A DNA stretch of 64,000 nucleotides, from assembly GCA_035275405.1 (NCBI GenBank), contig DATEMU010000014.1, forward strand, positions 1-64,000. Reading direction: 5' to 3'. The stretch's first letter is position 1; every line of letters begins with the position of its first letter. Origin of the DNA: Phycisphaerae bacterium (GTDB taxonomy: Bacteria > Planctomycetota > Phycisphaerae > UBA1845 > UTPLA1). This document shows, one piece after another, positions 59,344 to 64,000 of the stretch. The translations under genes were made by a program, and so were the position numbers. Under the pieces are notes generated by a model. That model ran no database searches and was not told where the DNA came from. It was given only the letters and a program-made list of their open reading frames with translations.

Positions 59344-59590
59344 TCAACGACCGCTGCCGCTTCAACCCCCAGCTTCATGGACCTCGGCTACCTTTACCGC
59401 CAAGGGTCGCCGAGTGCCGCCTTCGGCGTCTCCGCTGACGGTTCTGTCGTTGTCGGTCGCAGCCGGAATTCGACTGGCAATGCTGCCGACGAAGCCTTCT
59501 GTTGGACGCAGGCGACAAGGGTGGTCGGCCTCAGCGACCTGCCCGGCGGGGAAAATCATGTATTTGCCGGCGACAACTCGTCGGATTGCT
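59344..59590 (+). pseudogene. 5' fragment of a HAF-repeat gene
   Basis: Reads FMDLGYLYRQGSPS, AAFGVSADGSVVVGRSRNST and VVGLSDLPGGEN, nearly the same as the first repeat and a half of the intact gene at 59700-60893. It then goes out of frame and ends. It is a tandem partial duplicate lying 110 bases upstream of the intact gene's start. Confidence 0.75.
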
Positions 59591-59699
59591 CGGGCGCAAG
59601 CGGGTGGATGTCCTTCTATTGGACCGAGCGGTCGATCAGGCTACGTTTTGGGACCTTACTGCTGGGCTGAGAATTGGAAATAGCGTATCATGCTAGGGT

Positions 59700-60893
59700 A
59701 TGGTTCAACATGGGGCGGAACTGCCGCAGGCTAGAGGGGATCACTTGACGCTGCCGTTTGACTCCAATGGGATCGGTCGCGTTTGCGTCTCGGGCACGCT
59801 AGCGATTGCGGTCGTATCGATGGCCTCAGCCGCCGCTACTCCCAGCTTCATGGGCCTCGGCTACCTTCACCCCCAAGGGTCGCCAAGCGTCGCATTCGGC
59901 GTCTCCGGCGACGGCTCCGTCGTTGTTGGCCGTTCCCGCAACTCCACCGTCAACGGACGCGGCGAAGCCTTCCGCTGGACAGAGGCGGCCGGCATGGTCA
60001 GCCTCGGCGACCTGCCCGGCGGCGATTTCAACAGCCAGGCGATCTCGGTTTCTGCCGACGGATTGACGATCGTCGGGTCGGGCAGATCGGTCCTTTCCGG
60101 TTCATTCGAAGAAGCCATGCGATGGACTCAGGCCACTGGCATGACTGGTCTCGGCTTTCTGCCCGGCGGCTGGAATTCGAGCTCAGCCGCCGATGTCTCT
60201 GCGGACGGATCGACCATCGTGGGATACAGCCACTCTCAGATCGGCGATCAGGCGTTTCGCTGGACCCCGCAAGACGGGATGATGAGTCTTGGAATCGCCG
60301 ACTCGAGCGCCACAGGAGTTTCTGATGATGGGAACGTCATTGTCGGATCTGTCGGGACTCCTCGCCGCCCTTTTCGCTGGAGCGCCCAGATGGGTTTCCA
60401 GAATCTTGGTCTTCCCCCCAATGGCGCCATCTCAGGCATCGCTGAAGACGTTTCGGCGGATGGAGCCACCGTGGTCGGATGGACCCGCAAACCGGTTGGC
60501 GATCTGGATGCATTCGCATGGCAAGAAGGCAGTGGCTACGAAATGCTCGGCTATCTACCTGGCGACACCGAGAGTGCGGCGCAGGCCGCCTCAGCCGACG
60601 GTTCGAGGATCGTCGGGTACAGCCGGCGAATTGAGTTCCGGGCAGTACTTTGGGACGGAGCCAACGGCATTCGTGACCTTAAGCAAATGCTGGAAGCCGA
60701 TTTCGAGCTCAACCTTACGGGTTGGAATCTAATCAGCGCATATGCAATCTCGAATGATGGAAATACGATCGTTGGCGACGCCTACAACCCTAACGGACTC
60801 ATCGAAGCCTACCGCGCCGTCATTCCCGAGCCCGCCTCGGCGCTGCTCGCCCTCGCGTCCCTCGCCTTCTGCCTCACCCGCCGCCGCCATTAA
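59700..60893 (+). CDS. Exported HAF-repeat protein with PEP-CTERM tail
   Basis: 397 residues. A hydrophobic signal sequence (VCVSGTLAIAVVSMASAAA) ends at about residue 47, unusually late, so the true start may be nearer 59760. Six or seven HAF repeats follow: FMGLGYLHPQGSPSVAFGVS, GDGSVVVGRSRNS, AFRWTEAAGMVSLGDLPGGD. The ending IPEPASALLALASLAFCLTR followed by RRH is a regular PEP-CTERM signal, so export and exosortase-type processing are expected. Paralogue of 7281-8486 and of the relic just upstream. Biological role unknown. Confidence 0.85.
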   Translation: MVQHGAELPQARGDHLTLPFDSNGIGRVCVSGTLAIAVVSMASAAATPSFMGLGYLHPQGSPSVAFGVSGDGSVVVGRSRNSTVNGRGEAFRWTEAAGMVSLGDLPGGDFNSQAISVSADGLTIVGSGRSVLSGSFEEAMRWTQATGMTGLGFLPGGWNSSSAADVSADGSTIVGYSHSQIGDQAFRWTPQDGMMSLGIADSSATGVSDDGNVIVGSVGTPRRPFRWSAQMGFQNLGLPPNGAISGIAEDVSADGATVVGWTRKPVGDLDAFAWQEGSGYEMLGYLPGDTESAAQAASADGSRIVGYSRRIEFRAVLWDGANGIRDLKQMLEADFELNLTGWNLISAYAISNDGNTIVGDAYNPNGLIEAYRAVIPEPASALLALASLAFCLTRRRH

Positions 60894-61452
60894 TGCCAGA
60901 CGTTTTATTGACTAACGCCCGTGATCGTGCCCCGCACCATCCCAGACGATAAGCTGCGGTCGATCCAGTTGAGCGTGACTCGCGCCTCATAACCCGATGG
61001 GGTTGGGTTCGCAGGAGGGAACCGGACTCGAAAAGTGTCTCTGTTGCGCGCGGGCCCGTTGTTCGAGGACGGTGTGGTTCCCTCTAGTTGGCGGTCGGTA
61101 GCGAAACTGGCGGACCCACAAATAATTAACGCACCACGCCCGGACGGAGACTTTCGGGCCGTTGGCGTTTTTACGCAAAGTGGGGCAAAGGTTTACAGCG
61201 ATCGCGGGGCGCAATGGGTCTCGGCGAAGGTCGCGCGCGACCCTTTTTAGGGTGCGATCCGGCCCACCGCCGCCCCGATCGCGTCAAAAGCCTCTGAGTC
61301 TCTGGCCCGTTCGGGCCGTCGGGTTATGAGGGGGTTGGGTTCGGAGGAAGGGGCCAAAGGCACACACCTTTGTTCGAGACCATCGCTAAGAATCTAACCT
61401 CAGCCTTCGCTGCGTAGCATCAACTTGGCGCATTAATACATAGACATCGGCT
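60894..61452. other. Intergenic stretch, no gene seen
   Basis: No convincing frame. GGGGTTGGGTTCG occurs at about 61000 and again near 61331 (330 bases apart), with a nearby GGTTATGAG. The minus-strand reading around 60904-60980 (GMVRGTITGVSQ, then stop) could be the end of a lost gene, not identifiable. Confidence 0.4.
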
Positions 61453-62880
61453 TCAAAGGATTTTGACTAGGTTGATCTGCGGAATCTTTCCATCGTCGAG
61501 ATCCTTCTCAATCTTCTTTCGAAAATCAGGCGTTGGGTTTTCGTATTCGGGCAAATCGCGAAAGCGGTTCGGAACGCCGCTTCCACTTAAGAGAGGCGAT
61601 TGAAGCGCTAGGTCCACCGCGGAAAGATGACCTCCGAGCGCGTCTTGGCACGTCGTCGACAAATTCAGATTGCCTCCAGTAAGCCAGGCCAGAACGTCCT
61701 GCGCGACTGCCGGAATATTCGGCAATCCGCCGTGTTCGCCCTCGACGTAGCGGGTCGTTACGTCTTCGATCTGCGCCGAAGCGAGCGGAACTCTTCCATC
61801 GCCTTCGTAATTCACGTCGCACTTCTGACGTGCGGTGATTTTCTTCGTGCGTTCCCAACTGCCCCACAGGATCGTATCGAACTCAAGCCGGAACAAGCCA
61901 TCCTGGCCGACGCCTGCGATCATCAGCATCTTGTCCTTGTATTCCTGCAGAAGATCGTCGTGCCAGTTGTACAGGTCGGTATAAAATTGACGAACCTCAT
62001 CGAGAATAACTTGTAAACGCACGGTCGCGTCGGCCTTTATCTCTAGCTTCCAATCACTCGCCTTGTAAAGGTCAAAATTTGCGCAGGGATGTTTCTCTCC
62101 ATTTCGTGTTCCGGGATAGACGCCTGCGGGCGCCGGCAGCAGGCTTAGCGCGCCTCGCATCGTGCGGAATGTCTCGCGGCTTAGAAACATCCCCACGATG
62201 GCAAGCTGCTCCCAGCCCCAGAGGTGGTTCTTGAGATACCCGGCAATCGAGGGCGAGCCGAAGTGCGGCGTACCGATGTAAACAATCTTGTCGATCTTCG
62301 GCCAAAGCTGCTGCCCGTGGATCATGAGCGCGGTGCGAATCATAAGCCCACCCATGCTATGACCGACCAAGTGCACCTTTTTTCCATAATCGGCATGGGT
62401 CTTAAGAATCACGTCGCGCATGGCGTCGGCCGATGCCCGCAATGACTTGCGCCAGTCGTACGGGAATTGAACGCTCCCGCCAAAGATACCGGCGGACGCC
62501 AGCGCCCGGCGGAACGGCTCATAGGACAGATCCACGGCGCCAGGCATGATCTCAGCAAGCTCGTCGACATCGCCTGTACCGTCATCTTTCAACCGGAGCT
62601 GGTCAAGCTTGTCGCGGGCCTGCGCGATATCGATCCACCAGACACCGCCCAATCCAATGCTTTGAAGCGTGCTGCCCATTATTCCCGGCGCGAAGACGAT
62701 ATTCTTCGGTCCGGCGCTGAGATAATGCGTATCAGGGAGCTGGCCCATCAATTCGCGGAAAGCGGCGGGGCCCATCCACTTCTCGACTGCAGCCTTCGTC
62801 TTCGTATCCTTCAAGAGACTGATCCGTCTCTCGTAGTCTGCAACCAGATATTCTTCGAGTAGAGTAAGCGAACGGCCCAT
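61453..62880 (-). CDS. LCAT-like alpha/beta hydrolase
   Basis: 475 residues. The catalytic triad pattern of lecithin:cholesterol-acyltransferase-type lipases is visible: nucleophile in LVGHSMGGLMI at about 173, Asp in EGDGRVPLAS near 358 and His in EGEHGGLPN near 380. Other family features are IVFAPGIMGSTLQSIGLGGV near 60 and VYIGTPHFGSPSIAG after the nucleophile. No signal peptide, so cytoplasmic action on lipids or esters is likely. It lies 10 bases after the CHAT-domain gene on the same strand, so the two should be co-translated. Substrate not known. Confidence 0.8.
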   Translation of the reverse strand: MGRSLTLLEEYLVADYERRISLLKDTKTKAAVEKWMGPAAFRELMGQLPDTHYLSAGPKNIVFAPGIMGSTLQSIGLGGVWWIDIAQARDKLDQLRLKDDGTGDVDELAEIMPGAVDLSYEPFRRALASAGIFGGSVQFPYDWRKSLRASADAMRDVILKTHADYGKKVHLVGHSMGGLMIRTALMIHGQQLWPKIDKIVYIGTPHFGSPSIAGYLKNHLWGWEQLAIVGMFLSRETFRTMRGALSLLPAPAGVYPGTRNGEKHPCANFDLYKASDWKLEIKADATVRLQVILDEVRQFYTDLYNWHDDLLQEYKDKMLMIAGVGQDGLFRLEFDTILWGSWERTKKITARQKCDVNYEGDGRVPLASAQIEDVTTRYVEGEHGGLPNIPAVAQDVLAWLTGGNLNLSTTCQDALGGHLSAVDLALQSPLLSGSGVPNRFRDLPEYENPTPDFRKKIEKDLDDGKIPQINLVKIL

Positions 62881-62890
62881 CTTGTCCTCC

Positions 62891-64000
62891 TTAGTTTCGC
62901 AACGCAGTCACTTCCTCCTCGGACGCGAGATACAACTCGTATTGATTGGTCATGCTGTAGAACAACCCACCAATATTCTTGTATTGGGTCCACAGGAACA
63001 TGCGTGCCTGGGTGAGCGCCTCTCCGGCCGCCATCGGCTTTTCATCAACGATGCGGTACAAGAAACGAAAGTACAGCCACGCGAACTTGCTTGCAAGTTT
63101 GATCGGCACTTTTGTTTCGGTGCCAATGAAGGCTCGAATGCCGCGTTGGAAAAAGGAGTCCTCTAGTTCGCTGGCCATATGAGGATCGGCCTGCACAGTC
63201 GTGCATGCATTCGCGAAGACGAGTGGTGCATCCGTAATTTCGGCCTGGGAAAGATCGGCTATCCCAAGAGTGTCTTCAACTTTGGAGGTGTTCCCAAAGC
63301 GCAGAACCGGCTGAGCGCCGTTTCCTACGCTGCAATGACAATAGAAATACAAGACGCCGACGGGAGAGGGCCCCGGTGAGTCCAGTGCGCCCATAATCTG
63401 GCGTTTGAAGTCCGGTTGGGTTCGATCGGGGAAGAGTTGTGATCGCTTCAGTTTTTTGTACTCGCCGGCCTGCCATCCGGATTCGACCGCGACCTCGTCA
63501 TCGGCCTTGTCTCCCCAATAAAGTAGATTCACTGAATGGACCGAATCCATGCCGCCGAGAATGACGGAGCCGTTGTTGACGGGCCAGGAATGCGTGCCAA
63601 TGCGGAATCGCAGACCCAGAAAGTTTTCCGGATTCGCGAACGTCTTACGCATTACGTCCACCGGCTCAGTGTACATCAGCGCCCACGGGACGTGTGCCAC
63701 CCAGCCGGCGCCGCCTTGACTGGTCCAGTGAAAATCGATTCTGCTACCAGGCTTAAGTTTTGCCAGCAGTATCCGGAGTTTCGACTGTTTGTCAAAGCAG
63801 GATTCAAAAAGTCTGTATCCCGCGCTGGCCAGGGCCTGCCATTCTTTGGATTTGAGGACTTCGTCGAACGACTTCTTGTGGGCGGCGTCGGCTTCTTCCG
63901 GGAGCGGTTGCCAACCGTTGCCACGAGCGTAATGTGGCTCCCATTTTCCGCGCTTCGAAAGCCGGCCGAGAATGTCGAAGTGATCGAGATCATTCAAATA
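62891..64000 (-). CDS. CHAT-domain caspase-like protease, 5' end beyond window
   Basis: At least 368 residues. The frame is open to the right edge (a TTG at 63997 could start it, but the gene may continue). The C-terminal part has CHAT/caspase-like features: His in LYFYCHCS (about residue 220 of the visible part), Cys in LVFANACTTV (about 265) and the flanking FFQRGIRAFIGTETKVP strand. The N-terminal 130 residues are unassigned (LRILLAKLKPGSRIDFHWTS). CHAT proteases act in stress and immune-type pathways, cutting a partner when activated. The partner is probably the hydrolase immediately downstream. Confidence 0.75.
   Translation of the reverse strand, partial: YLNDLDHFDILGRLSKRGKWEPHYARGNGWQPLPEEADAAHKKSFDEVLKSKEWQALASAGYRLFESCFDKQSKLRILLAKLKPGSRIDFHWTSQGGAGWVAHVPWALMYTEPVDVMRKTFANPENFLGLRFRIGTHSWPVNNGSVILGGMDSVHSVNLLYWGDKADDEVAVESGWQAGEYKKLKRSQLFPDRTQPDFKRQIMGALDSPGPSPVGVLYFYCHCSVGNGAQPVLRFGNTSKVEDTLGIADLSQAEITDAPLVFANACTTVQADPHMASELEDSFFQRGIRAFIGTETKVPIKLASKFAWLYFRFLYRIVDEKPMAAGEALTQARMFLWTQYKNIGGLFYSMTNQYELYLASEEEVTALRN

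Follow-up and report, generated by a model that had tools for sequence, protein, structure and literature searches.

Organization of the locus

The DNA analysed here, referred to as the window, is a stretch of 64,000 nucleotides (G000:C14:1-64000) from a 5.29-Mb genome, and two genes lie on the reverse strand at its right end. The downstream gene (61453..62880, minus strand, ATG start) encodes a protein of 475 residues which, from its reading frame, profile match and structural model, is an LCAT/lysosomal phospholipase A2 (LPLA2)-like serine hydrolase and the predicted effector of the pair. The upstream gene is cut by the window's edge; it encodes a CHAT protein of which the C-terminal 369 of 777 residues are within the window (62891..64000, minus strand). 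The complete gene, taken from the host contig (C14:62891-65224; L002:2892-5225), runs on to position 65224 and has a GTG start after GGAGG. The CHAT reading frame ends at 62891 and exactly 10 nt (62881-62890) separate it from the hydrolase reading frame, as the initial annotation had stated for a caspase-like gene ahead of a hydrolase. A Shine-Dalgarno-like element for the hydrolase, TAAGGAGGA, can be read at 62885..62893 (minus strand); it overlaps the CHAT stop codon (62891-62893) and thereby suggests translational coupling of the two genes.

The nearest same-strand reading frame upstream of the CHAT gene, coding for a small membrane/zinc-ribbon-like protein, is 187 nt distant, and the 560 bases 3' of the hydrolase hold no same-strand gene; the cassette is therefore considered a two-gene unit. 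A sensor gene had been anticipated beyond the right edge of the window. On reading the host contig up to position 79900 none was found, and the nearest upstream reading frame gave no match to a sensor or to a defence gene; in relatives it is the CHAT protein itself that carries candidate sensor modules, fused at its N-terminus. No known defence genes were found adjoining the pair, neither protein is covered by a PADLOC model, NCBIfam gave no informative match, and the viral contigs and phage collection searched contained no match to the cassette.

The intergenic region 3' of the hydrolase (60985-61351) carries a 16-nt inverted repeat, CCTCATAACCCGATGG, with 315 nt between its arms and a 24-nt direct repeat adjoining it. 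The gene at 59700-60893 codes for a repeat protein whose C-terminus is PEP-CTERM-like (GSPS.AFGVS.DGSVVVGRSRNST), and the short reading frame at 59377-59670 partially duplicates the beginning of this gene in tandem.

The hydrolase

The hydrolase is a member of the LCAT family (PF02450, E-value 8.7e-14, 52 bits against a cut-off of 21). Its nucleophile is Ser175 in GHSMGG (codon 62356..62358), and the triad is completed by Asp361 in GDGRVP (61798..61800) and His383 in GEHGG (61732..61734), all on the minus strand. Each of these residues is invariant in a 14-row hydrolase alignment, and the triad is kept in every cassette pair with a complete hydrolase sequence; the L031 hydrolase, cut by a contig end, was left out of this count, and in the L100 hydrolase the His is kept and the sequence surrounding it differs. 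On comparing the hydrolase model with known structures, the closest was found to be lysosomal PLA2 (Z 20.2, 305 aligned residues, 3.8 A), in line with the LCAT-like enzyme and full triad that the initial annotation had recognized. Other structural matches were LCAT (Z 19.6) and the type VI lipase Tle4 (Z 16.1), the latter also matched by the hydrolase profile (4r1d, E-value 7.3e-8). With 12 rows and a mean pLDDT of about 69, the AlphaFold models are shallow, and the fold-level match alone was used; the relation to Tle4 is likewise at the fold level only, and orthologues of the hydrolase occur in Actinomycetota. The fold and motifs point to a lipid substrate, although esterase or thioesterase activity would be compatible with them too.

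By Kyte-Doolittle analysis no hydrophobic signal peptide or membrane segment was seen in the hydrolase, as had been remarked earlier, or in the CHAT protein, the best 19-residue means being 0.9 and 1.2 for the two proteins. At the C-terminus of the hydrolase (61453-61530) the last residue is Leu in all 17 aligned orthologues, mostly in endings of the type ...R[LI]L or KIL. The conserved tail suggests a fixed docking or latch role.

The CHAT protein and its catalytic residues

The CHAT domain assignment rests on a PF12770 match of 33-35 bits (cut-off 24), and this is the one CHAT domain in the whole genome. The catalytic positions are His630 in YFYCHC (63335..63337) and Cys674 in ANACTT (63203..63205), both on the minus strand. 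The full-length model was made for the 808-residue Acidobacteriota orthologue in L021, which is 67% identical to the window part in the CHAT region. It comprises a helical N-terminus of low confidence, a beta-sandwich at about 215-347 and a C-terminal CHAT domain, which resembles separase (Z 19.2) as well as Csx29 and Craspase TPR-CHAT (Z 18.9-18.1). The N-terminus of the window protein (about 180 residues) has no Pfam match and the same region is poorly modelled in the closest relative, so a sensor role for it would be assigned by analogy with the other members.

Among these members the N-terminal module is swapped. It is an NB-ARC STAND NTPase in L015, L026 and L030, a protein kinase in L027 and a set of WD40 repeats in L031, and short N-terminal regions with no assigned module are present in the window, L021, L024, L025, L029 and L014. 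The CHAT protein of L028 (6296-8995) begins with a phage-endolysin-like GH108 lysozyme, an unusual module for a receptor position. Such modularity resembles that of sensor-regulated conflict systems (Kaur 2020, PMC7159879; Kaur 2021, PMC8195603). In the Nonomuraea locus L029, a canonical CHAT protein of 1279 residues with an intact dyad is encoded 28 nt ahead of the cassette.

On examination of the catalytic dyad, Cys674 was found to be invariant in 17 of 17 CHAT partners. The His630 position is occupied by His in six (the window, L021, L022, L031, L029 and L014), by Gln in eight (Bradyrhizobium L025 among them), by Glu in two and by Lys in one. As a control, 22 proteins in which an LCAT-like hydrolase is fused to a CHAT domain (see below) and six reference CHAT domains were inspected, and both residues were present in 28/28; the loss of His is therefore specific to the two-gene family. 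The initial annotation had proposed that the CHAT protein cleaves the hydrolase. Since Gln, Glu or Lys replaces His in 11/17 pairs and the hydrolases of these pairs keep their triad, such cleavage cannot be the conserved mechanism. In the window clade (window, L021, L022 and L031) both residues are retained in 4/4 members, so the window CHAT protein may remain active as a protease and the proposal may hold there. Judging from these sequences, the CHAT partner is best read as sometimes a protease, often a pseudoprotease, that would regulate a phospholipase effector.

Linkage, spread and rarity of the gene pair

A tblastn search of both proteins against plasmids recovered the identical two-gene order on Microvirga and Streptomyces plasmids, and 12 close orthologues (L021-L032) emerged when an alignment of the hydrolase alone was used to scan 84,980 species genomes. 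Upstream sequence is available for 11 of the 12, each with a CHAT homologue immediately upstream; L023 starts at a contig end and so stands outside the linkage count, adding a Gammaproteobacterium. Three additional Streptomyces genomes likewise have CHAT upstream of the hydrolase. With the window, the two plasmids, the 11 scan loci and the three further Streptomyces genomes, the count comes to 17/17: every hydrolase orthologue whose upstream DNA can be read has the same CHAT protein directly ahead of it, and the conserved linkage on which the initial annotation had made its reading depend is thus present. Spacing, where clear, consists of gaps of 2-20 nt or overlaps of 4 nt. The CHAT and hydrolase gene trees have the same main clades, namely window + L021 + L022, an actinobacterial NB-ARC/kinase group, and L025 + L028. 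These pairs share a common ancestry, and the observations support the two genes as a real functional unit. A chance neighbourhood was considered and is ruled out by the 17/17 linkage.

According to record titles the hosts of the pair include Acidobacteriota, Bacteroidota (Niastella), Alphaproteobacteria, Betaproteobacteria (Variovorax), Magnetococcales and, within Actinomycetota, Streptomyces, Embleya and Nonomuraea. In five sampled groups the cassette was found in 1/294, 1/247, 1/347, 4/344 and 1/247 genomes, each count including the known member and the 294-genome count referring to ortholog-strength matches; the frequency is about one genome in 250-350 in most of these groups. Four more genomes of the 294-genome set have distant LCAT relatives only, and no other relative of the CHAT protein (P0001) was found in these 294 genomes of the window's phylum. 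Neighbourhoods differ from locus to locus, and the neighbours looked at in relatives are mostly non-defence genes. The cassette is rare and mobile, with a patchy spread.

Other couplings of LCAT and CHAT

The same scan detected 22 very long proteins (about 1300-2200 residues) in which an LCAT-like hydrolase is fused to an intact CHAT domain (L034, L037, L038, L041, L043, L047, L048, L050, L054-L058, L062, L063, L069, L072, L074, L082 and L085-L087). The domain order DUF7379-LCAT-CHAT-TPR-S (about 1800 residues) was checked on two of the 22, which thus also bear a DUF7379 alpha/beta-hydrolase and a TPR-S sensor domain. There are in addition LCAT-M17_N-CHAT fusions of about 1000-1100 residues, two of them next to SIR2-family genes: L009 (5238-9639), from a relative in the window's class, and L016 (5827-10325), on a Rhizobium plasmid, where the SIR2 protein has a pYEATS domain too. 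On an Agrobacterium plasmid (L019) an LCAT gene is followed by an overlapping CHAT gene, and in L064 and L079 one reading frame stands between the CHAT and LCAT genes. As the scan query held no CHAT information, the repeated coupling speaks for a genuine functional partnership between LCAT and CHAT.

Two further arrangements were observed. On a conjugative Rhizobium plasmid (L018:6109-11350) an LCAT gene overlaps the gene of a trypsin-like/MORN protease, a second protease type, and this pair stands just ahead of a Pycsar TIR effector and cyclase. On a Calothrix plasmid (L017:781-6642) a TPR-CHAT gene comes before the gene of a protein distantly related to the window CHAT protein, its His-Cys intact, and next a membrane-protein gene takes the place of the LCAT hydrolase, possibly as an alternative output.

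Proposed mechanism and alternative explanations

We propose, giving it about an even chance of being correct, that the cassette is a two-protein sensor-regulated module in which a CHAT regulator controls an LCAT/lysosomal-PLA2-like effector that damages membranes on a trigger. The hydrolase would be the constant, catalytically intact effector, probably deacylating membrane phospholipids from the cytosolic side, and the CHAT protein, with its variable N-terminal module, beta-sandwich and separase/TPR-CHAT-like domain, would be its dedicated regulator, keeping it silent or unassembled before the trigger. The N-terminal part would sense this trigger, most likely infection, upon which the CHAT protein would release or activate the hydrolase and the infected cell would stop growing as a result of the membrane damage. 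Where the His-Cys dyad is kept, as in the window's lineage, proteolysis may take part in activation; in lineages where the CHAT His is absent, activation would have to be non-proteolytic. The swapping of NB-ARC, WD40, kinase and GH108 modules is the pattern of sensor-regulated conflict systems and hence counts for such a module. More tentatively, a mainly non-proteolytic CHAT protein, its His lost and its Cys kept, may directly gate the LPLA2-like phospholipase, the swappable STAND, WD40 or kinase heads making it an inflammasome-like receptor with phospholipid hydrolysis as the output.

Among the alternatives, it is rather unlikely that an active CHAT protease switches the hydrolase on by cleaving it, in the manner of CHAT-activated gasdermins, the target here being a lipid hydrolase. 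The His630-Cys674 dyad retained by the window protein and the three other members of its clade would fit this, as would the intact residues of all 22 LCAT-CHAT fusions; yet the 11 pairs with Gln, Glu or Lys in place of His retain both the operon and the hydrolase triad, and no conserved cleavage site was identified. That His is dispensable would agree with a CHAT protein acting as an inhibitor or antitoxin, which would keep a toxic hydrolase silent by binding to it and be destroyed or titrated away upon infection, and the translationally coupled order of regulator before effector is suited to it as well. We nevertheless regard this as unlikely, in that sensor modules as big as NB-ARC and WD40 fit an activating receptor better than a simple antitoxin, and the invariant Cys674 would be needless in a pure inhibitor.

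The profile and structural matches to Tle4 raise the alternative of an exported antibacterial lipase related to this type VI effector, with the CHAT protein as immunity or adaptor protein. LCAT and lysosomal PLA2 outscore Tle4 structurally (Z 19-20), the hydrolase has no signal peptide, the CHAT protein bears sensor modules, and the cassette is present in Gram-positive Streptomyces, Embleya and Nonomuraea, which lie outside the range in which type VI secretion is known; such an export role is highly improbable. LCAT-family enzymes can be metabolic, and on this general ground, favoured by no tool result, the genes might form a housekeeping operon of lipid metabolism in which the CHAT domain has an ordinary processing role. 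A very patchy and rare occurrence with copies on plasmids, variable N-terminal sensors, neighbourhoods that vary between loci and the missing catalytic His in over half of the CHAT domains make this very doubtful as well.

Comparison with known systems

The cassette hydrolase has in common with lysosomal PLA2/LCAT and Tle4 the fold, the triad and a PG.MGS oxyanion-type motif, and differs from them in its lack of a signal peptide, its invariant Leu-ending tail and its CHAT partner. The LCAT-CHAT fusions, spread over many phyla, couple the same two enzyme folds; however, they do so in a single polypeptide, their dyad is always intact and their hydrolase is only about 25-30% identical to that of the window. 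They are not orthologous to the two-gene cassette. With TPR-CHAT (Csx29) of the type III-E Craspase the CHAT fold is shared (Z about 18-19), whereas the cassette has no Cas7-11/gRAMP or Csx30, a beta-sandwich and variable sensors replace the TPR, and no Cas gene was seen in the neighbouring reading frames scanned.

In VMAP (vWA-MoxR) ternary systems a caspase-superfamily domain likewise stands beside a hydrolase and many of the caspases are inactive. As described by Kaur et al. 2020 (PMC7159879), the caspase-superfamily domain in VMAP proteins always occurs with a neighbouring alpha/beta-hydrolase gene, the two are inferred to act together, and about 70% of effector-position caspases are inactive. 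The cassette, in contrast, stands alone, with its sensors fused to the CHAT protein, and its hydrolase is of LCAT/LPLA2 type, the VMAP partner being taken from its description as an alpha/beta-hydrolase. The reading frames adjoining the window pair gave no AAA/MoxR, vWA or VMAP match, and VMAP-C had no match in the whole genome in a search run with no positive control. The initial annotation had expected a lipid-acting hydrolase as the target to be new; the pairing of a caspase-superfamily domain with an alpha/beta-hydrolase is thus not wholly so. Of the stand-alone CHAT-LCAT cassette no description was found in the literature, covered in part, where an earlier mention is possible.

In the systems of a CHAT protease and a bacterial gasdermin, a CHAT gene lies beside the gene of a membrane-attacking effector. 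Assignment of the cassette to this type was rejected: the partner gene encodes an LCAT hydrolase, and the cassette is of two genes in 17/17 pairs. The effector is accordingly a serine hydrolase and not a pore former, and the CHAT His is often lost. If the proposed module is correct, bacteria would possess a compact cassette that places a phospholipase under the control of a caspase-fold receptor, and membrane-attacking immune effectors would extend past gasdermins and patatin-type lipases. Since nature offers both intact and His-less CHAT proteins in cassettes that are equivalent in other respects, it could further be tested directly whether caspase-fold regulators are able to act non-proteolytically.
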